From Kribbella amoyensis (GTDB lineage: Bacteria; Actinomycetota; Actinomycetes; Propionibacteriales; Kribbellaceae): a stretch of DNA of 64,000 bases. Below are positions 36,957 through 60,392 of the stretch, in pieces. The stretch spans positions 6,448,001-6,512,000 of the forward strand of contig NZ_VIVK01000001.1 of assembly GCF_007828865.1 (NCBI RefSeq), read 5' to 3'. Under the pieces are notes generated by a model that saw nothing but the letters and a program-made list of their open reading frames with translations, searched no databases and was not told the origin of the DNA. Position 1 is the first letter of the stretch; each line of letters opens with the position of its first letter. The position numbers and the translations under genes are program-made.

Positions 36957-37553
36957 TCATTTCCGGCCCTCCTGCGCCGCCACCGCAGCCCGAAGACGCG
37001 CCAGCTGGAGACGGGACTGAGCTTGGGCCGCGGCTTCCAGGTTGGTACGGGTCGCGGCGGCCTCGGCGAGCTTGTTGGCGACCCCACCCCGCCAGACCTG
37101 ACAGATCGCGAGCGCCAACGCGTCCGCGGCGTCCGCCGGCGTCGGCCGCTCGGGCAGGCTGAGGATCCGGGTGACCATCGTCGTCACCTGCTCCTTGTCC
37201 GCCCGCCCCGAACCGGTGACGGCCGCCTTCACCTCACTCGGCGTATGCAGCGCGACCGGCAACCCACGGCGAGCGGCGACGACCATCGCGACACCCGAGG
37301 CCTGCGCCGTACCCATCACCGTGCGGACGTTGTTCTGCGCGAAGACGCGCTCGACGGCGACCGAGTCGGGGCGGTGTTCGGCGATCCACTCGTCGATGCC
37401 CTGCTCGATACGGACCAGGCGCTTGGCGACGTCCAGGTCGGTCGGCGTCCGGATCACCCCGACGGCGACCAGCTTCGGCGGCCGGCCGGGAGCACCCTCG
37501 ACGATGCCGAGCCCGCACCGGGTCAACCCGGGGTCGACGCCGAGCACCCGCAC
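36957..37553 (-). CDS. ruvC: Holliday junction endonuclease RuvC
   Basis: The 198-aa RNase H-fold resolvase cuts junctions bound by RuvAB. It begins [20 protein letters not shown] with the first catalytic Asp (D7). The second acidic residue is in [17 protein letters not shown], and the C-terminal acidic pair is in [19 protein letters not shown] 37553 is preferred to TTG 37559 because it aligns with the usual M-R-V-L start and GGAGG lies 9 nt upstream. A near-perfect LexA box lies 13 nt before the start. First gene of ruvCAB. Confidence 0.96.
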
Positions 37554-37565
37554 TCCCAACCACCT

Positions 37566-37581
37566 CCGAACGTTTGTTCGA
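37566..37581 (-). promoter_or_regulatory. LexA (SOS) box of ruvC
   Basis: On the minus strand TCGAACAAACGTTCGG matches the actinobacterial SOS box TCGAAC-N4-GTTCGA at 11 of 12 defined positions. It lies 13 nt upstream of the ruvC start, so ruvCAB is probably DNA-damage inducible, as in mycobacteria. Confidence 0.8.
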
Positions 37582-37726
37582 CAACCCTAAACAGCCCCTC
37601 TCCCCACCACGAAATCGACGCGCCGAAACAGGCAGTACGCGGTTGCCGCCGGGTGGTGCTGAGGTGGGGTCCGGGCTGGGGGTACTGAGCATGCGCCGCC
37701 TGAGCCCGGCGCAGTTGCCCGACGGG

Positions 37727-37766
37727 CTGCCCCTCGAAGTAGCTTCCTGCCGGAAGCAGCTGGGTC
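37727..37766 (-). repeat. 40-bp interspersed repeat, copy 2 (upstream of ruvC)
   Basis: Inverted relative to copy 1: on the minus strand it reads CAGCTGCTTCCGGCAGGAAG then CTACTTCGAGGGGCAG, with the same internal GCTTCC/GGAAGC hairpin. It lies in the 240-nt gap between the Eis-like gene and ruvC, which otherwise holds only the SOS box. Confidence 0.7.
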
Positions 37767-37799
37767 GCTGCAGTAGGAAGCGCGTCCGGAGATTTGCTC

Positions 37800-38969
37800 T
37801 TAGAAGTAGTCGAGCATGTAGGGCGTGGGGCCCGTGAAGGCTGTCTGCAAGAGGTTGTCCTGGGTTGGGTTTCCGCCGGTTGCCTGGCCTGTTGTTCGGA
37901 GGGTTTTGAGGGGGGTGCCGGCGTAGAGGGCGGCCAGGGCCCGGGGGGTGAGGCGGGTTGCTTCGCCTGAGGTCTCGGTGGGGGTGAGGGTGCCTTGGGA
38001 GTTGCTGATGCTCAGGTGCCAGCGGCCGTTGTTGGCGGGGACTTCGGGGTCCTGGAGGTCGAGGTCCACGTCGACCTCGACGCCGGGGGCGTAACCGCGG
38101 GCGGCGATGGCGGCCGGGGCGTCCAGGAGACGGAGCATCCAGCGTTGGACCTGGGCCTGCTTGTCGGCTTCGTGTTCGGCCAGGTAGTGGATGGGGTCGT
38201 GGGGTGAGACGTACGCCTGCACCGTGCTGGCGATGGACGAGCCGGAGCCGACGGTCGACCAGAGGGCGCGGGCGGTCGCCTCGGAGTGGGCGATGAGTTC
38301 GTCGACGCTGAGGTTGCGGTGGTCCCAGTTGTAGACCACGAAGCCGTCGTCGGCGAGGTAGGCGAAGTTGGACTCGTCCTCGAGCCATTCGGCGACCTTC
38401 GACTCGGGCCAGACCAGCAGGCCGCTGGCGTGCCCGGACTGGTGCGCCTCGGCCACCAGTTCGAGCACGCGGGCCGCGTCGGCGGGACCGGCCCGGCGGA
38501 CGGTGACCTCCTTGCCGCCGAGGCTGCGCAGGTCGGCCGCCTGGAAGTCGAAGCGGTACCGCCCACCGCCGTACTCGTACCCGAGATGCCGGTAGATCAC
38601 CGTGGTCGCCGGGTACAGCGCGGTGAGCGGGAACCCCTTGTCCAGCGAGCGTTGCAGGACACCGCGCATCAGCAGGCTGCCGACCCCACGCCCCCGGTAC
38701 TCCGGGGAGACGACCACGCCGGCGACTCCCGCCATCGGGACCCGGCGGCCGCCCCACCACTGCTGGAAGTCCCAGATCCGGGCCGCCGCGACCACCTCGT
38801 CGCCGTCGGCCACGCCGAGGTACCGGCCGTCGCGGAGGAACTCCACCGCGTCCTTGGTCCACCGCTCGTGATCACCCGGAGCCAGCGGGCCGAACGAGCG
38901 GGCGCGAACCCGTACGACCGCGTCCAGGTGGTCCTCGGTGATGTCGACGAGTCGCAGCGCATCAGTCAC
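37800..38969 (-). CDS. Eis-like GNAT N-acetyltransferase
   Basis: The 389-aa protein has the Eis architecture. An N-terminal GNAT domain carries the acetyl-CoA-binding VAGVVVSPEYRGRGVGSLLM (about 83-102) and YPATTVIYRHLGYEYGG. A second GNAT half follows (about 160-290), then an SCP2-like C-terminal domain (WHLSISNSQGTLTPT, RLTPRALAALYAGT). The C-terminus ends MLDYF; in Eis enzymes the terminal carboxylate takes part in catalysis. Eis proteins acetylate aminoglycosides or other amines at several positions, but the natural substrate here is unknown. Length (Mycobacterium Eis about 400) is normal. Confidence 0.9.
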   Translation of the reverse strand: MTDALRLVDITEDHLDAVVRVRARSFGPLAPGDHERWTKDAVEFLRDGRYLGVADGDEVVAAARIWDFQQWWGGRRVPMAGVAGVVVSPEYRGRGVGSLLMRGVLQRSLDKGFPLTALYPATTVIYRHLGYEYGGGRYRFDFQAADLRSLGGKEVTVRRAGPADAARVLELVAEAHQSGHASGLLVWPESKVAEWLEDESNFAYLADDGFVVYNWDHRNLSVDELIAHSEATARALWSTVGSGSSIASTVQAYVSPHDPIHYLAEHEADKQAQVQRWMLRLLDAPAAIAARGYAPGVEVDVDLDLQDPEVPANNGRWHLSISNSQGTLTPTETSGEATRLTPRALAALYAGTPLKTLRTTGQATGGNPTQDNLLQTAFTGPTPYMLDYF

Positions 38970-39024
38970 GCGCCGACCCTACGCCCGCCGCCCACGCCCC
39001 GGCGACAGCAATAAAGGCATCCGC

Positions 39025-39504
39025 CTACTTCTTGTCGGTGACCCAGAGGTTGATCGCGCCCTCGACCACCACGGTGCCGTCGGACCGGGTCGCCTTGACC
39101 CGCACCGGGACGTCGGGGCCCGCGGTCCACGCGTCCGGGTCGGTCTCGGCCGAGCAAGTCAGGTCGCTGGTCGCCTTCGCCAGGTACGCGACCTCCATCC
39201 CCTTCGGCAGCCAGCGCTTGCCGGCCGGGATCGTCGCCTCCGCGAGAGCGCCCATCGCCGCTTCGAGACCGTTGCAGACGGCAATCGCATGGACGGTACC
39301 GATGTGGTTGTGCACGGCGCGGCGCTTCGGCAGCACCAGCGCCGCGTAGTTCGGGCTGATCTGGACGAAGCGCGGCCGGACCGAACGGAAGTACGGAGCC
39401 TTCCGGGTGAAGGCGTACGAGAACAGCCGGTCGCCGCCGGGAAGGGACCGCATCCGCTGCCACATCGGCAGCACCTGGTTCGCCATGCCGATGATGTTAC
39501 CCAC
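39025..39504 (-). CDS. Hotdog-fold DUF4442 protein
   Basis: The 159-aa protein is a single hotdog domain of the DUF4442 / YiiD-like thioesterase type. The helix PNYAALVLPKRRAVHNHIGT, then VHAIAVCNGLEAAMGALAEA, and strands MEVAYLAKATSDLTCSAE and VVVEGAINLWVTDKK fit that fold. It may hydrolyse or bind acyl-CoA thioesters; this is family inference. Start is GTG 39504 or ATG 39486; neither has a clear RBS. It lies between the Eis-like gene and the divergent LacI gene. Confidence 0.8.
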   Translation of the reverse strand: MGNIIGMANQVLPMWQRMRSLPGGDRLFSYAFTRKAPYFRSVRPRFVQISPNYAALVLPKRRAVHNHIGTVHAIAVCNGLEAAMGALAEATIPAGKRWLPKGMEVAYLAKATSDLTCSAETDPDAWTAGPDVPVRVKATRSDGTVVVEGAINLWVTDKK

Positions 39505-39542
39505 GAGTCACTTATTCGTCGAGGACGCGTTGAGCAGGGATC

Positions 39543-39575
39543 GGTTCAACCCGATTCAACCCGCCCCGATAAACT
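39543..39575 (+). promoter_or_regulatory. lacI promoter with tandem half-sites
   Basis: GGTTCAACCC and GATTCAACCC are adjacent near-identical 10-mers (39543-39562). They overlap the region before TAAACT (39570-39575), a likely -10 box. The second contains CGATTCAAC (39552-39560), exactly the right half of the site at the DUF624/transporter promoter. This suggests the LacI protein represses its own gene. Confidence 0.55.
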
Positions 39576-39611
39576 GACCATCCTGTCCGCGGCGACCGCT
39601 CACGAGGGACG

Positions 39612-40622
39612 ATGGCCACGCCCAGCATCAAAGAGGTCGCCCAGCGCGCCGGCGTCTCGGTCGGCACGGTGAGCAACGTCCTCAACCGGCCCTGGATCGT
39701 GGCACCCACCACCCGGCAGCGGGTCCAGGACAGCATTCGCGCGCTCGGCTTCGTCCGCAACGAGGCGGCCCGGCATCTGCGCGCCGGCCACAGCCGGACC
39801 GTCGGCCTGGTCGTGCTCGACGTGGCGAACCCGTTCTTCACCGACCTCGCCGAGGGCGCCGAGTCGCTCGCGCAGGACCACGACACCGTGGTGATGCTCT
39901 GCAACAGCAAGACGGACCCGGTGCGCGAGGGCCGCCACCTCGACCAGCTCGAGCAGCAGCGGGTCCGCGGCGTCCTCATCACCCCCTGCGACAGTACGGA
40001 TCCGCGGTTGAGCGAGCTGGCCGCGAAGGGTACGCCGGTCGTCCTGGTCGATCGCGCCGCGGACGGCGGGCACTGCTCGGTGTCGGTGGACGACCGGCTC
40101 GGCGGTCGGCTGGCGGGTGAGCACCTGATCGGATCCGGGCATCGCCGCATCGCTTTCATCGGCGGGCCGCTCACCATGCAACAGGTCGCCGATCGGCTGA
40201 CCGGGTTCACCGCCACTGTCGAGCAGGCCGAGGGCGTCGCCCTGCGCACCGTGGAGGTCGACGTGATGGGCGTCAAGCAGGGCCGCGCCGTCGGTGAGCG
40301 GATCGCCAAGCTGGGCAAGAAGTCCCGGCCGACCGCGGTGTTCTGCGCGAACGACCTGCTGGCGCTGGGATTCCTGCAGGCGATGGCCGTGGCCGGCCTG
40401 CGGGTCCCGGAGGAGATGGCGATCGTGGGGTACGACGACATCGACTTCGCCGCCGCGGCCGCGGTGCCGTTGTCGTCGGTCCACCAACCGGCCGAGCTGC
40501 TCGGCCGGACCGCGATGGAGCTGCTGCAGGAGGAGGTCGACGCGGCCGACCAGCATCGGCATCGCCAGGTGATCTTCCAGCCTGACCTGATCGTCCGCGC
40601 GTCGAGCGACGTCACCCGCTGA
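39612..40622 (+). CDS. LacI family transcriptional regulator of the rhamnogalacturonan locus
   Basis: The 336-aa protein has an N-terminal LacI helix-turn-helix (SIKEVAQRAGVSVGTVSNVL), a hinge helix (NEAARHLRAGHSRTVGLVVL) and a periplasmic-binding-protein-like sensor domain (about 60-336: GEHLIGSGHRRIAFIGGP, VFCANDLLALGFLQAM, EEMAIVGYDDIDFAAAAAVP). RBS GAGGGAC precedes ATG 39612. It is followed after 49 nt by the DUF1961 gene and lies just before the transporter operon. The shared CGATTCAAC half-site at both promoters supports local control, with a pectin-derived sugar as the likely inducer (inference). Confidence 0.92.
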   Translation: MATPSIKEVAQRAGVSVGTVSNVLNRPWIVAPTTRQRVQDSIRALGFVRNEAARHLRAGHSRTVGLVVLDVANPFFTDLAEGAESLAQDHDTVVMLCNSKTDPVREGRHLDQLEQQRVRGVLITPCDSTDPRLSELAAKGTPVVLVDRAADGGHCSVSVDDRLGGRLAGEHLIGSGHRRIAFIGGPLTMQQVADRLTGFTATVEQAEGVALRTVEVDVMGVKQGRAVGERIAKLGKKSRPTAVFCANDLLALGFLQAMAVAGLRVPEEMAIVGYDDIDFAAAAAVPLSSVHQPAELLGRTAMELLQEEVDAADQHRHRQVIFQPDLIVRASSDVTR

Positions 40623-40671
40623 ACCTACCGAACCCGCTGATCCGAGAACCCCACGGCAGAAGGGCATTCCC

Positions 40672-41313
40672 ATGCTCTACGAGAACCCGCTGACCTCCCC
40701 CGCCGACCTCGAAGGCTTCCGGCTCGAAGGCGACGGCGCCGTGTCCTTCCCGCTCGGCCGGCTCCGGCTGGAAAGCGTCCGCCCGCCGGCCGACGGGCAA
40801 GCGGCGAACGTGGTGCTCTGGTGCCCCGAGGACTTCCCCGCCGACGTGGTGATCGAGTGGGACTTCTGGCCGATCCGCGAACCAGGGCTGTGCATCCTCT
40901 TCTTCCACGCCGCCGGCCACCACGGGACGGACCTGTTCGAGCTGGCCCCGCGGACCGGGCCGTACGAGCAGTACCACCACGGCGACCTGGACACGTACCA
41001 CGTGTCGTACTTCCGGCGGCGCTGGCCCGAGGAACGCAAGCTGCACACCTGCAACCTGCGCAAGAGCTACGGCTTCCACCTCGTCGCGCAAGGCCCGGAT
41101 CCGCTGCCCGCGGTCCAGGACGCGGAGGGCCCGTACGCCCTGCGCCTGGTCGCGTCCGGCGGCCGGATCACCTTCTCCGTGGACGATCTGGTCGCGTTCT
41201 CCTGGACCGACGCCTCCCCCTTGCCCGGCGGCAAGCTCGGCTTCCGGCAGATGGCGCCGATGATCGGTGAGTACGCGAACCTGCGCGTCAGCCACCCCAC
41301 ACCGCAGCCCTGA
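40672..41313 (+). CDS. DUF1961 family protein (YesU-like)
   Basis: The 213-aa protein is a concanavalin-like beta-sandwich of the DUF1961 family. It contains VVIEWDFWPIREPGLCILFF, HAAGHHGTDLFELAPRTGPY, QYHHGDLDTYHVSYFRRRWP and a C-terminal GGKLGFRQMAPMIGEYANLR. Bacillus subtilis YesU, from the yes rhamnogalacturonan cluster, belongs to this family; its function is unproven. There is no signal peptide, so it acts in the cytoplasm. RBS AGAAGGG lies 7 nt before ATG 40672. It is probably co-transcribed with lacI and ends before a hairpin. Confidence 0.85.
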   Translation: MLYENPLTSPADLEGFRLEGDGAVSFPLGRLRLESVRPPADGQAANVVLWCPEDFPADVVIEWDFWPIREPGLCILFFHAAGHHGTDLFELAPRTGPYEQYHHGDLDTYHVSYFRRRWPEERKLHTCNLRKSYGFHLVAQGPDPLPAVQDAEGPYALRLVASGGRITFSVDDLVAFSWTDASPLPGGKLGFRQMAPMIGEYANLRVSHPTPQP

Positions 41314-41364
41314 CACCAGCGCCCCCAGGCAGCGGACACCACCTCGCACACCAGGCTCACAGCA

Positions 41365-41388
41365 GCCGTGGCCGGTTCCGGTCACGGC
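41365..41388 (+). terminator. Hairpin after lacI-DUF1961
   Basis: GCCGTGGCCGG and CCGGTCACGGC pair over 11 positions (one G-U) around a very short loop. It is located between the DUF1961 stop and the DUF624 promoter, so it probably insulates the two transcripts. Confidence 0.45.
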
Positions 41389-41411
41389 CCTGACAAACGC
41401 TTTCCCAGGCG

Positions 41412-41441
41412 TTGACGGTTGAGACGATTCAACTCTACGCT
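41412..41441 (+). promoter_or_regulatory. Promoter and LacI operator of the rhamnogalacturonan transport/lyase operon
   Basis: TTGACG (41412-41417) and TACGCT (41436-41441) are 18 nt apart. The spacer is filled by GTTGAGACGATTCAAC (41418-41433), an imperfect palindrome (arms GTTGA/TCAAC, central CG) whose right half CGATTCAAC recurs at the lacI promoter. A repressor bound between the two promoter boxes would block the operon. A second inverted pair, AACGC...GCGTT (41396-41413), lies just upstream. Confidence 0.65.
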
Positions 41442-41488
41442 CACAACACTTTTCGCCCGTGTCGCCTGGTCGCAAGGCAGGTAAGCCC

Positions 41489-41542
41489 ATGATTTCTCGT
41501 CCGTTCTCGTCGTGCCGGCCGCGCCGGTTTCGGCCCAGATGA
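41489..41542 (+). CDS. 17-codon upstream ORF coupled to the DUF624 gene
   Basis: ATG 41489, preceded by AGGCAGG 6 nt away, opens a small Arg/Ser/Pro-rich frame (MISRPFSSCRPRRFRPR). Its TGA overlaps the ATG of the DUF624 gene (ATGA). The DUF624 ATG itself has no good RBS, so translation may start here and pass on by coupling. It could also be chance. No function is claimed. Confidence 0.4.
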   Translation: MISRPFSSCRPRRFRPR

Positions 41543-42168
41543 GCATGTCTGGTTGGTCTCTGCGGTTGTACGAGGTCGCGGACGAGCTGATCTGGACGGC
41601 CAAGTTGAACGCCGCCTGGATCGGGTTCACCCTGCTCGGCGGCGTCGCGCTCGGTATCGGTCCGGCCACGCTCGCCGCCTATGACCTGGCCAGACGGCGG
41701 GTCAGTCATGAATCGTTTCATGTCCTGCCCGCGTTCCAGACGGCGTTCCGGCGCGAGTTCCGGCGCGGCACAGTCGTCGTCCTGCCGTTGCTGGTGGCCG
41801 GGATCGTTCTCATCGGCAACTACCTGTACTTCGCCGCGCTGGGGAGCTCCGCGTCGCTCCCCCGGCTGGCCTGTTTCGTGGCGTTCTTCGGCCTCGCCGT
41901 GATCTCGGCGTGGCTGCTGCCGATGGCCGTGCACTACGACCTGCGGCTGCGCGATCTGTTGCCGAAGGCATCGCTGGTCGCGCTGGCGCGGCCGGCCTCG
42001 TCCGTCGTCCTGCTCTTCGTCCTCGTCGCCGTCGGCTTCGTGGCCGGCACCGTGCCCGTCCTCGGGTTGCTGCTCGCCGTCGGCGGCTGGATCCAGCTCG
42101 ACTCCTGGCTCTGTCAGCGCTTCTTCGCCGAGAACGAGGCGCGCCTGCATCTGAAAGGGAACTCATGA
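41539..42168 (+). CDS. DUF624 (YesL-type) membrane protein
   Basis: The 209-aa integral membrane protein has about five hydrophobic segments (for example IGFTLLGGVALGIGPATLAA, VVVLPLLVAGIVLIGNYLYF, LACFVAFFGLAVISAWLLPM, VLLFVLVAVGFVAGTVPVLG). It matches DUF624/YesL, proteins routinely encoded beside lplABC-type sugar ABC transporters, with unknown function. ATG 41539 is chosen because the upstream small ORF ends over it (ATGA); an in-frame GTG at 41512 is possible. Its stop overlaps the binding-protein start (ATGA). Confidence 0.85.
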   Translation: MSMSGWSLRLYEVADELIWTAKLNAAWIGFTLLGGVALGIGPATLAAYDLARRRVSHESFHVLPAFQTAFRREFRRGTVVVLPLLVAGIVLIGNYLYFAALGSSASLPRLACFVAFFGLAVISAWLLPMAVHYDLRLRDLLPKASLVALARPASSVVLLFVLVAVGFVAGTVPVLGLLLAVGGWIQLDSWLCQRFFAENEARLHLKGNS

Positions 42169-43706
42169 CAATCCTCTCCCGCCGGCGGCTCGCCGTCGCC
42201 GTGGCGCTCTCGACGGCGCTGCTCGTCTCCGCCTGTTCGGGCGGCGACGGCAAGGAACAGGCGTCGGCCGACGAGCTGACCGTGATGGCGCCGTTGTTCG
42301 GTACCGCGCCGGATCCGAACGGCGAGCTCCAACAGGCCGTCGAGAAGCAGGTCGGCACGAAGCTCAAGATCACCTGGGTCCCGAACGCCGAGTACGGCGA
42401 CAAGACCAACGTCACGCTCGCCTCGGACAGCATCCCCGACCTGATGGTGGTGAACGAGAAGAGCCCGGCGTTCGTCAAGGCCGCCGAGGCCGGCGCGTTC
42501 TGGGACCTGACCGGCAAGCTGGACAAGTACCCGAACCTCAAGCCCGCCGACGAGCAGACCGCGAAGAACTCGATGGTCAACGGCAAGACGTACGGCGTGT
42601 ACCGGGTCCGGCCGTTGCTGCGGTCCGGGATCGTGATCCGCAAGGACTGGCTGGCCAAGCTCGGCCTGCAGGAGCCGCGGACGGTCGAGGACCTGTACAC
42701 CGTCGCGAAGGCGTTCACCGAGCGGGACCCGGACGGCAACGGCAAGAAGGACACTTACGGCCTGATCATCCCGAAGTGGCCCGGCGGGTACGGCAGCGCC
42801 AGCCCGTACGACGTGGTCGAGACCTGGTTCGGCGCGCCGAACGGGTGGGGTGAGCGGGACGGCAAGCTGGTTCCCGGCTTCGACACCCCGGAGTTCCTGG
42901 CCGCGAACCGCTGGCTGAAGACGTGGATCCAGCAGGGCCTGGTGAACCCGGACTTCGCCACCCTGGACAGCGGCAACTGGAACGACCCGTTCGTGCAGGG
43001 CAAGGGCGGGATGATCATCGACGTCAACGTCCGGGCCACCCAGTTGCTCGACCTGTTCAAGGAGAAGAACCCGAAGGACTTCGACAAGGTCACCCTGGTC
43101 GGCAACCTGCAGCGCGCCGACGGGCAGAAGTTCTCCTACCCGTTCACCGGGTACTCCAGCGTGATCGCGGTCTCCAAGCAGCACATCCGCAGTGAGGACC
43201 AGCTCGACCAGGTCCTGCAGGCGCTGGACAAGCTGGAGTCCAAGGAGGGCTCGATCCTGCTCACGAACGGGATCGAGGGCCGCAACTTCAAGGCCGACGG
43301 CAAGTTCGCGGTGCCGGTCAACCAGGACGACCCGAAGGTCAAGGCGATCCAGAACGACGTGGACAAGGCCTTCATCCAGCTCGGTACCCGGGCCAGCGTC
43401 GGGCTCGGCGCGTACCAGCTGCGGCCGGCCGACCCGGCCAGCCGGGCGATGCGGGAGAAGTTCGACGTGCTGATGGCCGAGGACCTGAAGACCGCGGTGT
43501 TCAACCCGGCCCTCGGGGTGATCGCGCCGACCCAGGTCAGCAAGGGCCAGACGCTGGAGAACATCGTCCCGGACGCGCGGATCAAGTACCTGTCCGGGAC
43601 CATCACCGAGGACCAGCTGAAGGCGCAGATCAAGCGCTGGTATGACGCCGGCGGTACCCAGATCGCGCAGGAGGTCAACGACCTCGCCGCCAAGGCCGGC
43701 GGCTGA
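42165..43706 (+). CDS. Sugar ABC transporter substrate-binding lipoprotein (LplA type)
   Basis: The 513-aa protein starts MTILSRRRLAVAVALSTALL and has a lipobox VSAC (Cys24), so it is anchored to the outer face of the membrane. It belongs to the large family-1 extracellular binding proteins that go with LplB/YtcP permeases (Bacillus LplA/YtcQ): LTVMAPLFGTAPDPNGELQQ, DLMVVNEKSPAFVKAAEAGA, and FTERDPDGNGKKDTYGL, a calcium-loop-like feature. It probably binds unsaturated rhamnogalacturonan oligosaccharides, judged from its neighbours. RBS AAAGGGA; the start overlaps the DUF624 stop. Confidence 0.9.
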   Translation: MTILSRRRLAVAVALSTALLVSACSGGDGKEQASADELTVMAPLFGTAPDPNGELQQAVEKQVGTKLKITWVPNAEYGDKTNVTLASDSIPDLMVVNEKSPAFVKAAEAGAFWDLTGKLDKYPNLKPADEQTAKNSMVNGKTYGVYRVRPLLRSGIVIRKDWLAKLGLQEPRTVEDLYTVAKAFTERDPDGNGKKDTYGLIIPKWPGGYGSASPYDVVETWFGAPNGWGERDGKLVPGFDTPEFLAANRWLKTWIQQGLVNPDFATLDSGNWNDPFVQGKGGMIIDVNVRATQLLDLFKEKNPKDFDKVTLVGNLQRADGQKFSYPFTGYSSVIAVSKQHIRSEDQLDQVLQALDKLESKEGSILLTNGIEGRNFKADGKFAVPVNQDDPKVKAIQNDVDKAFIQLGTRASVGLGAYQLRPADPASRAMREKFDVLMAEDLKTAVFNPALGVIAPTQVSKGQTLENIVPDARIKYLSGTITEDQLKAQIKRWYDAGGTQIAQEVNDLAAKAGG

Positions 43707-43709
43707 TCG

Positions 43710-44708
43710 ATGGCCACCGATCTGGTGCCGGAGGTGGTGCAGCCTGCCGCGGGGTCCTCGCGGCAGGCGTCCCCTCCGAAGCGCAAGCGGCCGCGCCGGC
43801 CGGTCCCGTTGTGGCGGGAGCTGTTCCGCTACCGCTGGCTGTACCTGTTGCTGTTGCCCGGCCTGGTGTACTTCGTCGTCTTCAAGTACCTGCCGATGTA
43901 CGGGCTGAGCATCGCGTTCAAGGACTACGTGCCGTTCCTCGGCTACTCGGGCAGCCAGTGGGTCGGGCTGGAGCATTTCCGCGAGTTGTTCACCGGGCCG
44001 GACTTCGGCCGGTTGATGTTCAACACGTTGCTGCTGGCGTTGCTGACGATCGTGTTCGTCTTCCCGGCGCCGATCGTGGTCGCGCTGCTGCTGAACGAGC
44101 TCCGGGTGAACGTGCTGAAGCGGTCGGTGCAGTCGCTGATCTACATCCCGCACTTCCTGTCCTGGACGATTGTTGCCTCACTCACCTATCTGCTGTTCTC
44201 GGTCGACTTCGGCGTGATCGCGAACTGGATCCACGGCCTGGTCGGCGGGCAGAAGGTCGACTACGTCGCGCAGGCGGACTGGTTCCGGCCGTTGATCGTG
44301 CTGCAGCTGCTCTGGAAGCAGACCGGCTGGGGCACGATCATCTACCTGGCCGCGCTGGCCGGGGTCGACTCGCAGCTGTACGAGGCGGCCCGGGTGGACG
44401 GGGCGGGCCGGTGGCGGCAGTTCTGGCACATCACCTTGCCGGCGATCCGGCCGACCATCGTGGTGATGGCGATCCTGACCTCCGGGCACCTGATGGACTC
44501 GGGGTTCGAGCAGATCTGGCTGATGACCACGTCGCTGAACCGGGACGTCGCGGACGTGTTCGACACGTTCGTCTACTACATCGGCATCACGCAGGGCGCG
44601 TTCAGCTACGCGACCGCCGTCGGCCTGTTCAAGGGTCTGGTCGGTGTCCTGCTGATCTTCGGCTCGAACTGGCTGGCCAAGCGCCTCGGCCAGCGCGGCC
44701 TGTTCTGA
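43710..44708 (+). CDS. Sugar ABC transporter permease (LplB type)
   Basis: The 332-aa membrane protein has six helices and the cytoplasmic EAA loop YEAARVDGAGRWRQFWHITL (about 229-248), which contacts the ATPase. Its start region FRYRWLYLLLLPGLVYFVVF, then KYLPMYGLSIAFKDY, is typical of the LplB/YtcP group (polygalacturonan or rhamnogalacturonan uptake). A polar, basic N-terminal extension of about 35 residues precedes helix 1. It begins 3 nt after the binding-protein stop, so it is in the same operon. Confidence 0.93.
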   Translation: MATDLVPEVVQPAAGSSRQASPPKRKRPRRPVPLWRELFRYRWLYLLLLPGLVYFVVFKYLPMYGLSIAFKDYVPFLGYSGSQWVGLEHFRELFTGPDFGRLMFNTLLLALLTIVFVFPAPIVVALLLNELRVNVLKRSVQSLIYIPHFLSWTIVASLTYLLFSVDFGVIANWIHGLVGGQKVDYVAQADWFRPLIVLQLLWKQTGWGTIIYLAALAGVDSQLYEAARVDGAGRWRQFWHITLPAIRPTIVVMAILTSGHLMDSGFEQIWLMTTSLNRDVADVFDTFVYYIGITQGAFSYATAVGLFKGLVGVLLIFGSNWLAKRLGQRGLF

Positions 44709-44721
44709 AGGGACCAAGCAC

Positions 44722-45615
44722 ATGCCGAGAACCCCGACCGTGCGGTACTACGACTCGAAAGGCAGCCGCGCCTTCGACATCCTGAACGCCGTCCTGCTGA
44801 TCGGGCTGTCGCTGGTCACCGTGCTGCCGCTGCTGTACGTGCTGGCCGGGTCGTTCGCGACCGAGTCGGAGATCAGCTCCCGGCCGTTCTTCCTCTGGCC
44901 GGAGAAGTTCGTTACCGACACCTACACCTACATCTTCTCCACCGGCACGTTCGTCCGGGCACTGCTGACCACGATCTGCGTGACCGCGGTCGGCACCGTG
45001 ATCCAGCTGCTGCTGACGCTGACGATGGCGTACCCGCTGGCGAAGCGGTACCTGCCGGGCCGCACCCTGGTGCTCAACCTGGTGATCTTCACCCTGGTCT
45101 TCAGCGGCGGGATGATCCCGACGTACCTGGTGGTGCGGGACCTGGGCCTGCTGGACAGCTACTGGGCGCTGATCCTGCCGCTGGCGATCAACCCGTTCTA
45201 CCTGATCGTGGTGAAGAGCTTCTTCCAGGAGTTGCCCGAGGCGCTCGAGGAAGCGGCCCGGATCGACGGCTGCAACGAGCTGAACGTGTTCCTGCGGATC
45301 GTGCTGCCGTTGTCGAAGCCGATCATCGCGACCTTCTCGCTGTTCTACGCGGTCGCGATCTGGAACGACTACATGTCGCCCTTGCTCTACATCGACGACA
45401 GCAAGAAGTGGACCCTGCAAATGATCGTCCGCCAGCTCACCGCGGCGAACGCCGACTCCGCCAACGTCCTGCAGCAACTCGAGACCGTGACGTTCCCCGA
45501 GCAGGGCCTGAAGTTCGCGGTGGTGGTCGTGGCGACGCTGCCGATCCTGCTCTTCTACCCGTTCCTGCAGAAGCACTTCGCCAAGGGCGTCCTGATCGGA
45601 TCGGTGAAGGAATGA
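44722..45615 (+). CDS. Carbohydrate ABC transporter permease (YtcP/LplC type)
   Basis: The 297-aa second permease has six helices and the EAA loop LEEAARIDGCNELNVFLRIV (about 174-193). FDILNAVLLIGLSLVTVLPL and LYVLAGSFATESEISSRPFF are typical of the YesQ/YtcP/LplC group. It lies 13 nt after the first permease, with RBS AAGGGA. The stop overlaps the next ATG (ATGA). No ATP-binding subunit is encoded anywhere in the locus, so a shared MsmX-like ATPase is expected elsewhere in the genome. Confidence 0.93.
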   Translation: MPRTPTVRYYDSKGSRAFDILNAVLLIGLSLVTVLPLLYVLAGSFATESEISSRPFFLWPEKFVTDTYTYIFSTGTFVRALLTTICVTAVGTVIQLLLTLTMAYPLAKRYLPGRTLVLNLVIFTLVFSGGMIPTYLVVRDLGLLDSYWALILPLAINPFYLIVVKSFFQELPEALEEAARIDGCNELNVFLRIVLPLSKPIIATFSLFYAVAIWNDYMSPLLYIDDSKKWTLQMIVRQLTAANADSANVLQQLETVTFPEQGLKFAVVVVATLPILLFYPFLQKHFAKGVLIGSVKE

Positions 45616-48203
45616 CGACACTGCACTGGCTCGACAAGCCGAAGAACCAGGGCGTGACCTGGGGCGTCCCGTGGCGACGCGGCACGGTACCGGCCGGCAC
45701 CCCCTTCGCCATCAAGGACGGCACCCCGGTCCAGAGCTGGACCACGGCAACCTGGCCGGACGGCTCGGTTAAATGGTCGGCGCACGCGATCGGTCCAGGT
45801 GCACCACAGGCCGAGTACGAGCTCGTCCCAGGTGAGACCTCGACCGCACCGGGACAGCCGATCAAGGTGAGCGAGCAGGACGATGGCGTCCAGGTCGGTA
45901 CCGGTGACGTTACCTGGATCCTGACCAAGCCACGACTCATCCAGTCCATCCGGTACGGCGAACGCGAGGTCGTCCGCGATGTCCGGCTGGTCAGCCTCAA
46001 GCAGGACGGGCCCGACGAGGACGGCGACCGGACGAGACGGGAGACGACCGCCGAGGTCGAGCGGATCGTCGTCGAGCAACGGGGACCGGTTCGTGCCGTG
46101 GTTCGGGTCGAGGGACGGCACGGTGACTGGCTGCCGTTCAGCGTGCGGCTGTACTTCTACGCCGGCGCGACCGACGTCCGGATCGTGCACACGTTCGTCT
46201 GGGACGGCGATCCCGACCGGGACTTCCTGGCCGGCCTCGGTCTCAGCGCCGACGTGGTGATGACCGACGAACCGCACAACCGGCACATCCGGCTCGCCGG
46301 TCCCGAGGGGTTCCTCACCGAGGCGGTCCGCGGACTCACCGGTCTACGGCGCGATCCGGGCGAGGAGGTACGCCGGGCGCAGGTGGCGGGCGAGTCCGTC
46401 GGGGAGATCCCGAATCCCGAGGTCTCGCAGCGGCTCCACCTCATCCCGCGGTGGAACGACTACACCCTCGACCAGTCCAGCGCAGACGGGTTCACCCTGC
46501 GGAAGCGGACCGCGCCCGGCCATGGCTGGGTGACGATCCCGGCCGGGACCAGGGCACCCGGGTACGGCTATGTGGGAGGGGCCGGCGGTGGGCTCGGATT
46601 CGGGCTGCGGGACTTCTGGAAGGTGCATCCGACCCGGTTGGACATCCGGCGGGCCGCGACCGATCTGGCCACGGCGACCGTGTGGATGTGGTCGCCGAGC
46701 GCGCCCGCGATGGACCTGCGGTACTGGCACGACGGGATGGGCCAGGACACCTACGCCGAACAGCTCGAAGGCCTGGAGATCACCTACGAGGACTACGAGC
46801 CCGGGTTCGGCACCGCGCACGGGATCGCCCGGACGCACGAGCTGACCTTGCGGGTCCACGAGGCGACGCCGTCGGCCGAGGCGCTGGCCGAGCACGCCGA
46901 GATGCTCAACTTCCCCGCGCAGCTCGCGGCCTCGCCACAACGGCTGCACGAAGCCGGCGTGTTCGGGAGCTGGGGTCTGCCGGATCCGGAGCACCAGGAC
47001 CTGGAGGACAGGCTCGGTTTCCTCTTCGACTACTACGTGCGGCAACGCGAGCAACGCCGGTGGTACGGGTTCTGGGACTACGGCGACGTGATGCACACCT
47101 ACGACCGGGACCGGCACACCTGGCGGTACGACGTCGGCGGGTACGCCTGGGACAACTCGGAGCTCTCCCCCGATCTGTGGCTCTGGTACCAGTTCCTGCG
47201 GACCGGCCGGGCCGATGTGTTCCGGTTCGCCGAGGCGATGACGCGGCACACCGGCGAGGTCGATGTGCACCACCTCGGCCGGTGGAAGGGACTCGGGTCG
47301 CGGCACAACGTGCAGCACTGGGGATGCAGTTGCAAGCAGTTGCGGATCTCCAGCGCGATCTACCGCCGGTTCTTCTACTACCTGACCGCCGACGAACGGA
47401 CCGGCGATCTCCTGGACGAGCTCGCCCAGGCCGAGGAGACCTTCCTGGCCGTCGATCCGCTGCGCAAGGTGCGGACCGACGTCTACACGCCCGACTCGCA
47501 CGCCTTGTCGGTCGGGCTCGGGGTCGACTGGGGTGCGCTGGCCGCCGCCTGGCTGACTCGCTGGGAGCGGCACGGTGACGAGCGGGCCCGGCAACGGCTG
47601 GTCGGCACGATGACCGACATCGCCGCGCTCCCGTACGGCTTCCTCACCGGCAACGCCCTCTTCGACCTGAGCACCGGCCGCTTCGACACCACCCGCGCGA
47701 CCATCTCGGTCTCGCACCTGTCCGCGATCTTCGGCCTGCCCGAGATCTGCGCCGAACTGATCGACCTCGACCTCGACGTGCCCGGCTTCGAGAAGGCGTG
47801 GCTGCAGTACTGCCGGTTGTTCCTCGCCACCCCGGACCAGCAGGCCGCCGAGGTCGGGCAGCCACTGACCGGGATCTCGCTGGTCCAGGCGCACAGCCGG
47901 CTCGCCGCGTACGCCGCCGCGCGGACCGGCGATCCCGAGCTGGCGAAAGTTGCCTGGCGCAAATTCTTCGTCGACGAGGGCGACCAGCTCAACCGCAACG
48001 CCCTGCAACGCGAAACCCACTGGCACCTCACCGCGGTCCGCAGCCCCGGCGTCCTGATGCCGATCGACGAAGCCCCCTTCGTCGGCACCAACGGCGCCGC
48101 GCAGTACGGCCTGGCCGCGATCCAGAACCTTGCCCTCGTCCCCGAACACCGAACCCACCTCGGAGGTGGAACCGCGTGGAGCTCACCCGACGAACCGTCC
48201 TAG
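45612..48203 (+). CDS. Cytoplasmic PcRGLX-type exo-rhamnogalacturonan lyase family protein
   Basis: The 863-aa protein has no signal peptide (MTTLHWLDKPKNQGVTWGVP). It shows the PcRGLX layout: N-terminal RIFT-barrel (about 1-100: TVPAGTPFAIKDGTPVQSWT, WPDGSVKWSAHAIG), a middle beta domain (about 100-400) and a C-terminal alpha/alpha-barrel with GFWDYGDVMHTYDRDRHTW, RYDVGGYAWDNSELSPDLWL and AMTRHTGEVDVHHLGRWKGL. The founding enzyme, from Penicillium, cleaves rhamnogalacturonan I from the end (PL26). Imported oligosaccharides are the likely substrate. ATGA overlap with the permease. Family from motif memory; specificity is inferred. Confidence 0.8.
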   Translation: MTTLHWLDKPKNQGVTWGVPWRRGTVPAGTPFAIKDGTPVQSWTTATWPDGSVKWSAHAIGPGAPQAEYELVPGETSTAPGQPIKVSEQDDGVQVGTGDVTWILTKPRLIQSIRYGEREVVRDVRLVSLKQDGPDEDGDRTRRETTAEVERIVVEQRGPVRAVVRVEGRHGDWLPFSVRLYFYAGATDVRIVHTFVWDGDPDRDFLAGLGLSADVVMTDEPHNRHIRLAGPEGFLTEAVRGLTGLRRDPGEEVRRAQVAGESVGEIPNPEVSQRLHLIPRWNDYTLDQSSADGFTLRKRTAPGHGWVTIPAGTRAPGYGYVGGAGGGLGFGLRDFWKVHPTRLDIRRAATDLATATVWMWSPSAPAMDLRYWHDGMGQDTYAEQLEGLEITYEDYEPGFGTAHGIARTHELTLRVHEATPSAEALAEHAEMLNFPAQLAASPQRLHEAGVFGSWGLPDPEHQDLEDRLGFLFDYYVRQREQRRWYGFWDYGDVMHTYDRDRHTWRYDVGGYAWDNSELSPDLWLWYQFLRTGRADVFRFAEAMTRHTGEVDVHHLGRWKGLGSRHNVQHWGCSCKQLRISSAIYRRFFYYLTADERTGDLLDELAQAEETFLAVDPLRKVRTDVYTPDSHALSVGLGVDWGALAAAWLTRWERHGDERARQRLVGTMTDIAALPYGFLTGNALFDLSTGRFDTTRATISVSHLSAIFGLPEICAELIDLDLDVPGFEKAWLQYCRLFLATPDQQAAEVGQPLTGISLVQAHSRLAAYAAARTGDPELAKVAWRKFFVDEGDQLNRNALQRETHWHLTAVRSPGVLMPIDEAPFVGTNGAAQYGLAAIQNLALVPEHRTHLGGGTAWSSPDEPS

Positions 48204-50881
48204 CCGGTCTGGCCGCTGTCCCCGTGGCCTCGCTGCTGGACCCGCGGACGGCCGCTGCCGTCCCGACCGCCCCCGCCGAAGTCCCCCCGGTCGGCCTGAG
48301 CTGGCTGGAAGGCCGCCCGGGCACCGCTGCCGTCACCACCTGGGGTACCCCGTGGCCGCAAGGCGCGGTCCGCCCCGACCAGACGTTCGAGCTCGCCGCG
48401 GCCGACGGTACCGCGGTCCCGTTGCAGAGCTGGCCCACGGCGTACTGGCCGGACGGCTCGCTGAAGTGGAGCGCGCACGCGGTCACCGCGGCGACGCCGG
48501 CCGAGACGTACACCCTCAAGGCCGGGACGCCGGCCGCACCGAGTACGCCCGTCACGGTGAAGAACGAGAAACAGTTCATCGACGTGGACACCGGCGTGAT
48601 CAGGACCCGGATCCGCAAGGACGGCACCGACCTGATCAGCCAGATCTGGCGCGGCGGCGTCGAGATCGCGCGCAAGGGCACCCTGGTCAACCTTCGGCAG
48701 GACCGGATCGCCGAGGACGAGGAGACCGGAGTCGCCCGCGAGCGGTACGAGAGCTCGATCGAGAAGGTCACCGTCGAACAGTCCGGACCGGTGCGCGCGG
48801 TGGTCCGGATCGACGGTCGGCACGTGAACAAGAAGGGCAAGTCCTGGCTGCCGTTCACGGTCCGGCTCTACTTCTACGCGGGTGCTGAGAACATCCGGAT
48901 GGTGCACACGTTCGTGTACGACAAGGACGGCCAGAACGACTTCCTGGCCGGCCTCGGGGTGCGCTTCCGAGTCCCGCTGCGCGACGCGGCGTACGACCGG
49001 CACGTCCGGTTCGTCGGTGAAGGGCACGGCCTGCTCGCCGAAGCGGTGAAGGGGATCACCGGACTCCGCCGCGATCCTGGTGCCGCGGTTCGCGCTGCCC
49101 AGGTGGCCGGGACGAAGCTGCCGGATCCGTCGACCTGGGACCAGCGGGTCACGACGCGGCTGCAGTACATCCCCGAGTGGGGCGACTACTCGCTCAGCCA
49201 GCTGTCCGCGGACGGGTTCAAGGTGCGGAAGCGGACGAAGAAGGGGTACGGCTGGATCCCGGTCGACCAGGGCGAGCGGGCCGCCGGGCTCGGGTACGTC
49301 GGCGGGGTCGGTGGCGGGCTCGCGTTCGGGTTGCGGGACTTCTGGCAGCGGCACCCGACCCAGCTCGACATCCGCGGCGCGCACACCGAGGAGGCCGAGG
49401 TCACCGTCTGGCTGTGGTCCCCGGAGGCCGGGCCGATGGACCTGCGGTTCTACCACGACGGGATGGGCCAGGATACGTTCCCGGAGCAGCTCGAGGGCCT
49501 CAACATCACCTACGAGGACTACGAGCCGGGCTTCGGCACGCCGTACGGGATCGCGCGGACCAGCGAGCTCACCTTCTGGGCCTTGCCGGCCACGCCGTCG
49601 GCCGAACGGCTCGGCGCGATGGCCGACCAGGTCCGCACACCTCCGCAGCTGGTGAATCCGGTGGACCACCTGATCGGGACCCGGGTGTTCGGCGGCCTGG
49701 TCAGCCCGGTCGACCGGTCGCATCCGGCGAAGCAGGCGATCGAGGACCACCTGGACTTCCTGTTCGACTTCTACCGCGGCCAGGTCGAGCAGCGGCACTG
49801 GTACGGGTTCTGGGACTACGGCGACATCATGCACACGTTCGACGAGGACCGGCTGGTCTGGCGGTACGACGTCGGCGGGTACGCCTGGGACAACTCGGAG
49901 CTGTCACCGGATCTATGGCTCTGGTACGCGTTCCTGCGGTCGGGGCGGGCGGACATCTTCCGGTTCGCGGAGGCGATGACGCGGCACACCGGTGAGGTCG
50001 ACGTGTACCACCTCGGCCAATGGGCCGGGCTCGGGACGCGGCACGGCGTCCAGCACTGGGCCGACAGCGCGAAGCAGCAGCGGATCAGTACGGCGATCTA
50101 CCGGCGCTTCTACTACTTCCTCACCGCGGACGAACGGACCGGCGACCTGCTGTCGGAACTGGTGGACTCCGACCGGACCTTCCTGGTGCTGGATCCGTTG
50201 CGGAAGATCCGGACCGAGCCGTACGAACCGGATCCGCACGCGCTCGCGATCGGGCTCGGGACCGACTGGAGCGGACTGGCCGCGGCCTGGCTGACCGAGT
50301 GGGAGCGACAGGGACCGAAGGCGGCGACCGCGAAGGCGAAGCTGCTCGGCACGATGGAGACGATCGGTGCGATGCCGAACGGGTTCGTCACCGGCGGCGG
50401 GCTGTACGACCTGGACACCGGCCGGTTCGCCCCGGTGACGGAGAAGACGGTCAGCGTGTCCCACCTCAGCGCGATGTTCGGCCAGGTGGAGATCTGCGCC
50501 GAGCTGATCGACCTGGTGGACGTACCCGCGTTCGAGCAGGCGTGGCTGCAGTACTGCCGGCTCTACAACGCGAGCCGCGCCGAGCAGACCGCCGAGTGCG
50601 GGGCCCACTTCGGCAACCTGATCCTGCGGCAGGGCCACGCCCGCCTCACCGCGTACGCCGCGGCCCGGCTCGACCGCGACGACCTGGCCCAGCGGGCGTG
50701 GCGCGAGTTCTACACCGGTGACGGGTACGCCCCGACCCTGCCGTGGACCGCGCAGGACGTCACCTCGACGCTGAACCCGACCAAGGCGGCGACCTGGGTG
50801 TCCACCAACACGACCGCTCTCTACGGCCTGGCCGCGATCCAGACCCTCGCGCTGGCCGGCGACCACATCACCAACCCGTGA
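48176..50881 (+). CDS. Tat-exported PcRGLX-type exo-rhamnogalacturonan lyase family protein
   Basis: The 901-aa paralogue of the preceding gene shares all its blocks (YWPDGSLKWSAHAV; GFWDYGDIMHTFDEDRLVW; RYDVGGYAWDNSELSPDLWL; AMTRHTGEVDVYHLGQWAGL). It starts with a twin-arginine signal: VELTRRTVLAGLAAVPVASL, cleavage near TAAA. GTG 48176 follows GGAGGTGG at 6-8 nt and overlaps the previous gene by 28 nt. It should act outside the cell on longer rhamnogalacturonan, while its sister handles imported pieces. The pair probably arose by tandem duplication followed by gain or loss of the signal. Confidence 0.8.
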   Translation: MELTRRTVLAGLAAVPVASLLDPRTAAAVPTAPAEVPPVGLSWLEGRPGTAAVTTWGTPWPQGAVRPDQTFELAAADGTAVPLQSWPTAYWPDGSLKWSAHAVTAATPAETYTLKAGTPAAPSTPVTVKNEKQFIDVDTGVIRTRIRKDGTDLISQIWRGGVEIARKGTLVNLRQDRIAEDEETGVARERYESSIEKVTVEQSGPVRAVVRIDGRHVNKKGKSWLPFTVRLYFYAGAENIRMVHTFVYDKDGQNDFLAGLGVRFRVPLRDAAYDRHVRFVGEGHGLLAEAVKGITGLRRDPGAAVRAAQVAGTKLPDPSTWDQRVTTRLQYIPEWGDYSLSQLSADGFKVRKRTKKGYGWIPVDQGERAAGLGYVGGVGGGLAFGLRDFWQRHPTQLDIRGAHTEEAEVTVWLWSPEAGPMDLRFYHDGMGQDTFPEQLEGLNITYEDYEPGFGTPYGIARTSELTFWALPATPSAERLGAMADQVRTPPQLVNPVDHLIGTRVFGGLVSPVDRSHPAKQAIEDHLDFLFDFYRGQVEQRHWYGFWDYGDIMHTFDEDRLVWRYDVGGYAWDNSELSPDLWLWYAFLRSGRADIFRFAEAMTRHTGEVDVYHLGQWAGLGTRHGVQHWADSAKQQRISTAIYRRFYYFLTADERTGDLLSELVDSDRTFLVLDPLRKIRTEPYEPDPHALAIGLGTDWSGLAAAWLTEWERQGPKAATAKAKLLGTMETIGAMPNGFVTGGGLYDLDTGRFAPVTEKTVSVSHLSAMFGQVEICAELIDLVDVPAFEQAWLQYCRLYNASRAEQTAECGAHFGNLILRQGHARLTAYAAARLDRDDLAQRAWREFYTGDGYAPTLPWTAQDVTSTLNPTKAATWVSTNTTALYGLAAIQTLALAGDHITNP

Positions 50882-50894
50882 AGGGAGGCGGCGA

Positions 50895-51929
50895 ATGGCA
50901 AGTATCGTCGCGACCGGCCTCGCGTTCGTGATGGCGGGTGGCGGGCTCGGACCGGCTCCGCACCCGGATCCCGGCCTGCTCGCGCAGTGCACGGGGACGG
51001 CACCGATCACCTGCACCTTCGACGTACCGCCGGGGCACTACGACGTAACCGTTGCCCTGGGCAACCGTCAGGAGGCGGCGCGGACCGAGGTACTGGCCGA
51101 GGCTCGCCGGTTGATGGTGCCGGCGACGGACAGTGCCGCGGGTGAGCTGGTCCGGCGGACGTTCACCGTGAACGTACGCGACCCCGAGGGACAGCAGAAC
51201 AGCTTCGCCGGACCCGGGACGCCGGGACTCACCCTGACCTTTACCGGGCCGGCTCCGAAGGTCAGTGGGATCGGCCTCGCTCCTGCGGCTACCCCGCGGC
51301 TGTTCCTGGCCGGGGACTCGACCGTCACGGACCAGGAGACCGCGCCGTACACCGGTTGGGGCCAGCGGTTGCCGCGCTGGTTCCGGCACGGGCTGTCGGT
51401 GGTGAACCACTCGGGCTCCGGCGAGAGTACGGTGTCGTTCCTCGCCGAGCCCGCGATGTGGGCGGCGATGCGGCCGCAGTTGCGGCCGGGCGACGTGGCA
51501 CTCGTGCAGTTCGGCCACAACGACAAGCAGACGACCGCCGAGCAGTTCCGCGCCAACCTGACCGAGATCGTCGACGGCATCCGGGCGACCGGGGCGACGC
51601 CGGTCCTGGTGACGCCGATCGTGCGGCGCTGGTTCACCGGGGACCGGCTGAACGCGACCGGGTTGATCGTGAACGGACTCGGGGTCGACCTGCCCGCGGA
51701 GATGCGCGCGGTCGCGGCGAGCAAGGACGTCAGCTTGATCGACCTCACCGCGCGGTCCCAGGCGGTCGTCGAGGACCTCGGTCCGGAGGCGGCGAAGGCG
51801 CTCTACCTGACCCGGGAGAAGCGGGACGACACGCACACCTCGGAGTACGGCGCGTCGGTCTACTCCGACCTGGTCGCGGCCGGGCTGACCGAGCTCGGCC
51901 TGGTCCCCGACCGGTACTGGAACCGCTGA
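50895..51929 (+). CDS. SGNH/GDSL rhamnogalacturonan acetylesterase-like protein
   Basis: The 344-aa protein has an N-terminal galactose-binding-like beta domain (about 40-130). The SGNH hydrolase follows: FLAGDSTVTDQE (nucleophile Ser about 142), VNHSGSGEST (Gly block), VQFGHNDKQ (Asn block) and DDTHTSEYGASVYSDLVAAG (catalytic Asp/His). The GDST and DxTHxxxxGA pattern fits the rhamnogalacturonan acetylesterases YesT/RhgT. It would remove acetyl groups from rhamnogalacturonan I. A weak Sec signal may exist (SIVATGLAFVMAGG) but lacks basic residues. The start is 13 nt after the upstream stop. Last gene of the operon. Confidence 0.87.
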   Translation: MASIVATGLAFVMAGGGLGPAPHPDPGLLAQCTGTAPITCTFDVPPGHYDVTVALGNRQEAARTEVLAEARRLMVPATDSAAGELVRRTFTVNVRDPEGQQNSFAGPGTPGLTLTFTGPAPKVSGIGLAPAATPRLFLAGDSTVTDQETAPYTGWGQRLPRWFRHGLSVVNHSGSGESTVSFLAEPAMWAAMRPQLRPGDVALVQFGHNDKQTTAEQFRANLTEIVDGIRATGATPVLVTPIVRRWFTGDRLNATGLIVNGLGVDLPAEMRAVAASKDVSLIDLTARSQAVVEDLGPEAAKALYLTREKRDDTHTSEYGASVYSDLVAAGLTELGLVPDRYWNR

Positions 51930-51942
51930 GAACAAGTACCGC

Positions 51943-51976
51943 GGGCCTCGGACAGTCTGAGAGCTGTCCAAGGCCC
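51943..51976. terminator. Bidirectional terminator between the RG operon and yebC
   Basis: GGGCCT-c-GGACAG pairs with CTGTCC-a-AGGCCC around an 8-nt loop, 12 bp with one mismatch. It starts 14 nt after the acetylesterase stop and faces the convergent yebC. Confidence 0.65.
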
Positions 51977-51995
51977 CCGGTGGGTGTTCAAGGCG

Positions 51996-52757
51996 TCAGC
52001 CGACGGATTCCATGACCTCGTCGGAGACGTCGAAGTTGGCGAAGACGTTCTGCACGTCGTCGCTGTCCTCGAGGGCCTCGATCAGCCGGAAGATCTTGCC
52101 GGCGCCGTCGGCGTCCAGCTCGATCGTCATCGACGGGACGAACGACGCGTCGGCCGAGTCGTAGTCGATCCCGGCGTCCTGCAGCGCGGTCCGGGCGCCG
52201 ACCAGGTCGGTCGCCTCGGTGACGACCTCCCAGGACTCGCCGAGGTCGTTCACCTCCTCGGCACCGGCCTCCAGGACGGCCTCCATCACGTCGTCCTCGG
52301 ACAGCGACTTGCCGTCCTGCTCCTTCGCGACGACGATCACGCCCTTGCGGTTGAACAGGTAGGCGACCGAGTTCGGATCCGCCAGCGAGCCGCCGTTGCG
52401 GGTCATCGCGGTCCGCACGTCGGCGGCGGCCCGGTTCCGGTTGTCGGTCAGGCACTCGACCAGCATCGCCACGCCGTTCGGGCCGTAGCCCTCGTACATG
52501 ATCGTCTGGTACTCCGCGCCACCGGCCTCGGCGCCCGAGCCGCGCTTGACCGCGCGGTCGATGTTGTCGTTCGGGACCGAGGACTTCTTCGCCTTCTGGA
52601 TGGCGTCGTAGAGCGTCGGGTTGCCGGCCGGGTCACCCCCGCCCATCCGGGCGGCCACCTCGATGTTCTTGATCAGCTTGGCGAAGAGCTTGCCGCGCTT
52701 CGCGTCGATGACCGCTTTCTTGTGCTTGGTGGTGGCCCATTTCGAATGGCCTGACAT
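51996..52757 (-). CDS. yebC: YebC/PmpR family transcriptional regulator (TACO1-like)
   Basis: The 253-aa protein starts [20 protein letters not shown], the diagnostic YebC N-terminus, followed by [20 protein letters not shown] and [20 protein letters not shown]. The family is described as DNA-binding regulators and as translation factors that relieve proline-rich stalling. ATG 52757 is clearly the start. It follows pdxT by 34 nt and in most actinobacteria is followed by ruvC; here the rhamnogalacturonan and Eis/hotdog block (about 14.5 kb) lies between them. Confidence 0.95.
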
Positions 52758-52791
52758 CGCGAACCCAACCCTTCTACCGCTGTTGCCGAAC

Positions 52792-53391
52792 TCAGAGGTC
52801 ACGCACCAGGTCGGCGAAGTACCCGTGCAGCCTGGCGTCCCCGGTCATCTCCGGGTGGAACGACGTGGCCAGCAGCCGATCATGGCGAACCGCGACGATC
52901 CTACCCGCGGCGGGGCCCGAGCTCACCGTCGACAGTACCTCGACCGCCAAGCCGACCCGCTCGACCCACGGTGCCCGGATGAACACGGCGTGGTACGGCG
53001 TGTCGAACGCGGCGAACTCCAGCTCGGCCTCGAACGAGTCCACCTGGCGCCCGAACGCGTTCCGGCGGACCGTGACGTCGAGGCCGCCGAGCGTCTCCTG
53101 GCCCTCGATCCCGCCGGTGATCTCGTTGGCCAGCATGATCATCCCGGCACAGGTCCCGAACACCGGCAGGCCGTCCGCGATCCGCTTCTGCAACGGCTCG
53201 AACAGCTCGAACGACCGGGCCAGCTTGTCCATCGTGGTCGACTCACCGCCGGGCAGCACCAGCGCGTCCACGGCGGCCAGCTCGGCCGGCCGGCGGACCG
53301 GAACGCCCTCGACGCCGACCTGGGCCAGCATGGCGAGGTGCTCGCGCACGTTGCCCTGCAGCGCGAACACCCCGATGACAGGCTTGCTCAC
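52792..53391 (-). CDS. pdxT: Pyridoxal 5'-phosphate synthase glutaminase subunit PdxT
   Basis: PdxT hydrolyses glutamine and passes ammonia to PdxS for PLP synthesis. The 199-aa class I glutamine amidotransferase shows [18 protein letters not shown], the GGES motif (about 48-51), nucleophile Cys81 in [12 protein letters not shown], and the His-Glu pair in SFHPEMTGD (about 178-180). GTG 53391 has GAGGAG 5 nt upstream. It lies 22 nt after an unknown gene that separates it from pdxS. Confidence 0.96.
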
Positions 53392-60353: not shown

Positions 60354-60392
60354 GGTCCCATTCGATCACTGATCCTGGAGCGCCGACGCCCC

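Follow-up and report, generated by a model that had tools for sequence, protein, structure and literature searches.

The DNA analysed here, a 64-kb window (64,000 nucleotides in its entirety) located at 6.45-6.51 Mb in the 8.1-Mb assembly of the soil bacterium Kribbella amoyensis, contains an operon in which genes for a LacI-family regulator, a DUF1961 protein, a DUF624 membrane protein, a solute-binding protein and two ABC permeases precede two adjacent PL26 lyase genes, termed PL26c and PL26t, and the gene of a GDSL acetylesterase, all on the forward strand. The regulator (39612..40622) displays Pfam LacI and Peripla_BP_3 domains and has a syntenic homologue in most of the related cassettes. 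The DUF1961 protein (40672..41313) is a homologue of Bacillus subtilis YesU (PF09224, E 1e-82; PDB code 1oq1, "Protein yesU", E 4e-62) and is followed by the DUF624 membrane protein (41512..42168; PF04854, E 6e-17). The solute-binding lipoprotein (42165..43706; Pfam SBP_bac_1, lipobox VSAC) has AlgQ1 and AlgQ2, which bind alginate oligosaccharides, among its nearest solved relatives. Permeases A (43710..44708) and B (44722..45615) both present the BPD_transp_1 domain, the latter gene sharing its last 4 nt with the 5' end of PL26c. The acetylesterase (50895..51929; Pfam Lipase_GDSL_2), which is of the YxiM / rhamnogalacturonan (RG) acetylesterase type and has a signal-like N-terminus, matches PDB entries 2o14 (YxiM; E 8e-21) and 1deo (RG acetylesterase; E 4.5e-5). 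The transporter genes upstream and the acetylesterase downstream of the lyases, as described in the original prediction, are thus confirmed.

A probable LacI operator, the palindrome TTGAGACGATTCAA (41419..41432, forward strand), lies ~80 nt 5' of the DUF624 gene and is the sole match within the window, where 0.05 would be expected. Identical copies occur in Kribbella, Thermoactinospora, Hamadaea and Paractinoplanes cassettes, and most Nonomuraea cassettes carry TTGAGTCGATTCAA, one base off, at a similar distance to the solute-binding gene. In Thermoactinospora rubra, a GH42 gene and a PL11 RG lyase gene flank the same cassette. Taken with the YesU and DUF624 neighbours and the AlgQ-like solute-binding protein, this makes RG-I the likely substrate of the cassette.

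The Kribbella operon lies between yebC and the DUF4442, GNAT and ruvC genes. The cassette is located within the yebC-ruvCAB block (window positions 36957-52802), and the same site is occupied in most Kribbella examined, including those with the cytosolic copy only. Elsewhere in the window, positions 26120-27046 encode a protein with a REase_MTES_1575 nuclease domain, and positions 58897-60369 a sigma-70 factor with a SnoaL-like domain at its C-terminus.

Two PL26 lyases with and without an export signal

PL26c (protein P0001; 45612..48203, forward strand) comprises 863 residues and presents the motif HNVQHWGCSCKQ, while PL26t (protein P0002; 48176..50881, forward strand) comprises 901 residues and presents the motif HGVQHWADSAKQ. 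The two genes overlap by exactly 28 nt (48176..48203), and PL26t starts at a GTG codon preceded, 6 nt upstream, by the ribosome site GGAGGTGG. Both proteins contain the PcRGLX_1st, PcRGLX_2nd and PcRGLX_3rd Pfam domains, nearly full length and far above cut-off, and both match by sequence the Penicillium chrysogenum lyase PcRGLX (PDB code 5XQ3; E 3.7e-242 for PL26c and 2.2e-271 for PL26t, the fold of the latter being assigned from this match). They share 56% identity across 874 columns. The two PcRGLX-type proteins of 863 and 901 residues with a 28-nt overlap that had been predicted are therefore present as described. An AlphaFold model of PL26c superposes on 5XQ3 with TM-scores of 0.88/0.85 (E 1e-71). 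Of the structural comparison originally proposed, the fold of PL26c consequently stands (TM 0.88), but the active-site loops of the models, built from shallow alignments, display pLDDT values <50, and the models were used for the overall fold only.

In 5XQO, the PcRGLX entry with bound tetrameric substrate, a tyrosine within the motif EITYED is changed to phenylalanine relative to the other PcRGLX entries. The corresponding residue, Y392 in PL26c and Y446 in PL26t, is present in all 125 aligned proteins. By homology, PL26c and PL26t are full-length PL26 (PcRGLX) lyases; their predicted exo-lyase activity on RG-I, EC 4.2.2.24, is assigned by relation to the single characterised enzyme of the family. 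A chance occurrence or a mis-called start of PL26t was ruled out by the ribosome site, the overlap and conservation, and chance pairing is excluded because both copies adjoin in 17 of 38 Kribbella species genomes.

The N-terminus of PL26t (VELTRRTVLAGLAAVPVASLLDPRTAAA; 48176..48259, forward strand) consists of a twin arginine, a hydrophobic stretch and an A-x-A end, with the cleavage site probably following residue 28. In 17/17 Kribbella copies of the Tat lineage that adjoin a cytosolic copy, both the twin arginine and the hydrophobic stretch are retained, and a TatC gene is present in the K. amoyensis genome. A more divergent, remote Tat-lineage copy in the Kribbella genome G031 has a twin-arginine signal of its own. 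No signal peptide was found on PL26c, which is predicted to be cytosolic. These calls follow a simple motif and hydrophobicity rule, with doubtful rows judged by eye, rather than a trained predictor. Proteins of the PL26c clade contain a mean of 4.6 cysteines versus 2.5 in the PL26t clade, a difference that fits cytosolic life of the former. The contrast between a signal-less and a twin-arginine copy, on which the original prediction was built, thus holds at the level of sequence, the arginines being conserved in orthologues.

Origin and distribution of the two lineages

Trees were built with FastTree on 125 extracted PL26 proteins and with IQ-TREE on 44 of those. PL26c falls within a signal-less actinobacterial clade (47 rows, support 99) and PL26t within a clade of Tat proteins (56 rows, support 99) that includes Streptomyces. 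PL26c is 72-77% identical to proteins of Nonomuraea, Micromonospora and Thermoactinospora, while PL26t is ~81% identical to a Hamadaea protein. As judged from these relationships, PL26c and PL26t are separate old lineages and not products of a recent duplication. The 125-protein tree shows only two changes of signal state, one for the cytosolic clade and one in Sphaerimonospora. The protein of Sphaerimonospora mesophila (L108:10001-12562) is a Tat-lineage PL26, alone in its cassette and signal-less, with a ribosome site before a new ATG, and this loss represents another relocation to the cytosol, independent of the first. Another adjacent PL26 pair was observed in the same class (L149:7530-13110); its members are 46% and 65% identical to PL26t and both have Tat-type N-termini.

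An alignment of the cytosolic and Tat lineages shows 189 positions with an invariance of at least 98%. In the motif RHxVQHWxxSxKQ, members of the cytosolic clade display N566 (98%) and C572 (100% of 47 proteins), positions that are mostly glycine and aspartate in Tat proteins and likewise in PcRGLX, and several further differences are fixed between the lineages. N566 and C572 may mark a changed subsite in the cytosolic clade.

PL26 is present in 21 of 38 Kribbella species genomes. All 21 possess the cytosolic copy, that of G018 with a stop inside the aligned stretch, and in 17 a Tat copy adjoins it, with the same 28-nt overlap in most pairs measured. A Tat-type copy is unlinked, elsewhere in the genome, in G031, and is missing from G003, G018 and G032. 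No remnant of the Tat gene was identified 3' of PL26c in the cytosolic-only Kribbella loci checked, yebC lying directly 3' of PL26c in G032. The search for paired signal-plus and signal-minus homologues suggested originally also yielded, beyond the 17 Kribbella, adjacent pairs in T. rubra and in a Hamadaea metagenome-assembled genome (MAG). Cytosolic-only cassettes are common (Nonomuraea, Planomonospora, Micromonospora, Auraticoccus), several of the organisms that carry them having an extra PL26 elsewhere in the genome, while cassettes with only the Tat-type gene were found in Paractinoplanes, Sphaerisporangium and Sphaerimonospora. In K. rubisoli and Auraticoccus, the genome has no PL26 other than PL26c. 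In a class-wide sample, 35 of 395 genomes contained PL26, mostly as a single copy. Many actinobacteria share the uptake cassette, in which PL26c is apparently the core member and the Tat gene optional.

Proposed working of the operon and alternative explanations

The locus is probably an RG-I uptake operon in which one enzyme family works on both sides of the membrane. The LacI repressor would control the operon through its one operator. PL26t would fold in the cytosol before export through Tat and, once outside, trim RG-I chains or fragments by exo-type β-elimination, with the acetylesterase stripping acetyl groups. Unsaturated rhamnogalacturonan oligosaccharides would then be imported by the lipoprotein and permeases, and PL26c, the universal core enzyme, would cut these oligomers in the cytosol to ΔGalA-Rha. 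A PL11 RG lyase gene is located in the same genome, unlinked to the operon (G000:C2:142200; L145:8949-11351). As 11 of the 21 PL26-positive Kribbella have no over-threshold PL11 match, PL26t may serve there as the principal RG lyase outside the cell. A counterpoint concerns substrate size, since an exo-acting PL26t that releases disaccharides would leave PL26c with little to cleave if longer oligomers did not enter the cell.

The step following the lyases also counts against this explanation. No GH88/GH105 enzyme for ΔGalA-Rha was found in the K. amoyensis genome, despite its PL26 and PL11 genes; the sole PF07470 match was rejected as it belongs to a GH76 protein. A strong GH88/GH105 match is absent from 16 of the 21 PL26-positive Kribbella, and none at all was detected in T. 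rubra, Sphaerimonospora, Sphaerisporangium, one Micromonospora and one Nonomuraea. No candidate hydrolase was identified beside the cassette in the sampled flanks (Nonomuraea, Auraticoccus, Phytoactinopolyspora, Microbacterium, Paractinoplanes and others). It is conceivable, though doubtful, that the signal-less clade constitutes a PL26 subfamily that has so far escaped recognition, intracellular, with a distinct binding site (N566/C572) and serving a minimal YesU-DUF624-ABC cassette, its product being opened by an enzyme outside GH88/GH105. The pattern exposes a missing step of RG-I breakdown in actinobacteria, the opening of the unsaturated disaccharide without GH88/GH105.

That the two lyases differ in substrate as well as in location, the cytosolic lineage using a changed binding site for another uronide or for substituted (acetylated, galactosylated) or short oligomers, is suggested by the lineage-specific residues N566 and C572, fixed in an otherwise invariant motif, and by several further fixed differences; this is nevertheless unlikely, given that the two lineages have the tyrosine and 189 invariant positions in common and that both occur in an RG-I cassette context. 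Redundancy or gene dosage, with the Tat copy a dispensable extra catalysing the same reaction, would agree with the three Kribbella that lack this copy, with its unlinked position in G031 and with the frequency of single-lyase cassettes. Such an account seems decidedly improbable given that 17 Kribbella species keep the separate lineages adjacent, with conserved twin arginines, and that the overlap is the same in most measured pairs. Overlapping genes and a shared fold would permit a heteromer, through which PL26c bound to PL26t might leave the cell via Tat. Hitch-hiking of this kind is very hard to reconcile with genomes in which PL26c is the only PL26, as in K. rubisoli and Auraticoccus, or with the cysteine-richer composition of PL26c, as expected of a cytosolic protein, and we give it little credence. 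The adjacency of the genes and their 56% identity might evoke a tandem duplication within Kribbella, but PL26c and PL26t each resemble proteins from other families of organisms more than they resemble one another, in two supported clades, and both trees rule out a recent event. The division of one family between the inside and outside of the cell, as originally proposed, is supported by sequence evidence within a probable RG-I uptake operon: the two proteins belong to a single lyase family and the N-terminus of PL26t has the features of a Tat export signal.

Comparison with known systems

PcRGLX (PDB codes 5XQ3, 5XQG, 5XQJ and 5XQO), named an exo-rhamnogalacturonan lyase in its entry titles, which mention a product or a tetrameric substrate, displays the same domains, fold and tyrosine as both Kribbella proteins. 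It has the motif HWxDSAKQ in common with PL26t, whereas PL26c differs in presenting GCSCK with N566 and C572. In contrast with the Kribbella pair, PcRGLX is a single fungal enzyme without a transporter operon. The family, with one characterised enzyme, has been judged to be without subfamilies (PMC10461819). The division into a cytosolic and a Tat lineage with marker residues offers a concrete split that is testable as subfamilies, and the natural pair within one operon allows function to be compared directly.

The yes cluster of B. subtilis (YesOPQ, YesT, YesU, YesV, YesW/YesX) resembles the Kribbella operon in its solute-binding protein, two permeases, RG acetylesterase and YesU and DUF624 families, YesU being encoded between the RG acetylesterase and DUF624 genes (PMC6120924), and also in its two adjacent paralogous RG lyases, YesW and YesX. 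The latter are described as secreted (PMC7596534), whereas one lyase of the Kribbella pair is signal-less. Moreover, the yes lyases belong to PL11 and those of Kribbella to PL26, so that the operon would work like the yes cluster but is not a member of it. A GH105 enzyme (YesR) is present in the yes cluster and none was found in the Kribbella operon, which, unlike the yes cluster, has a LacI regulator.

No published description of an inside/outside PL26 split and no literature on a Kribbella rhamnogalacturonan system were found. The Geobacillus xylanases XynA and XynA2 are both members of GH10. These extracellular and intracellular enzymes are encoded in one cluster and act before and after an ABC importer (PMC4428132). 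Such a split, together with the adjacent PL11 lyases YesW and YesX, argues against the "undescribed catabolic design" put forward in the original prediction, and the Kribbella arrangement is not new in kind. The two systems share the placing of a single activity outside and inside the cell around an ABC importer and differ in chemistry, the Geobacillus enzymes being glycoside hydrolases acting on xylan and the Kribbella proteins predicted lyases of RG-I.
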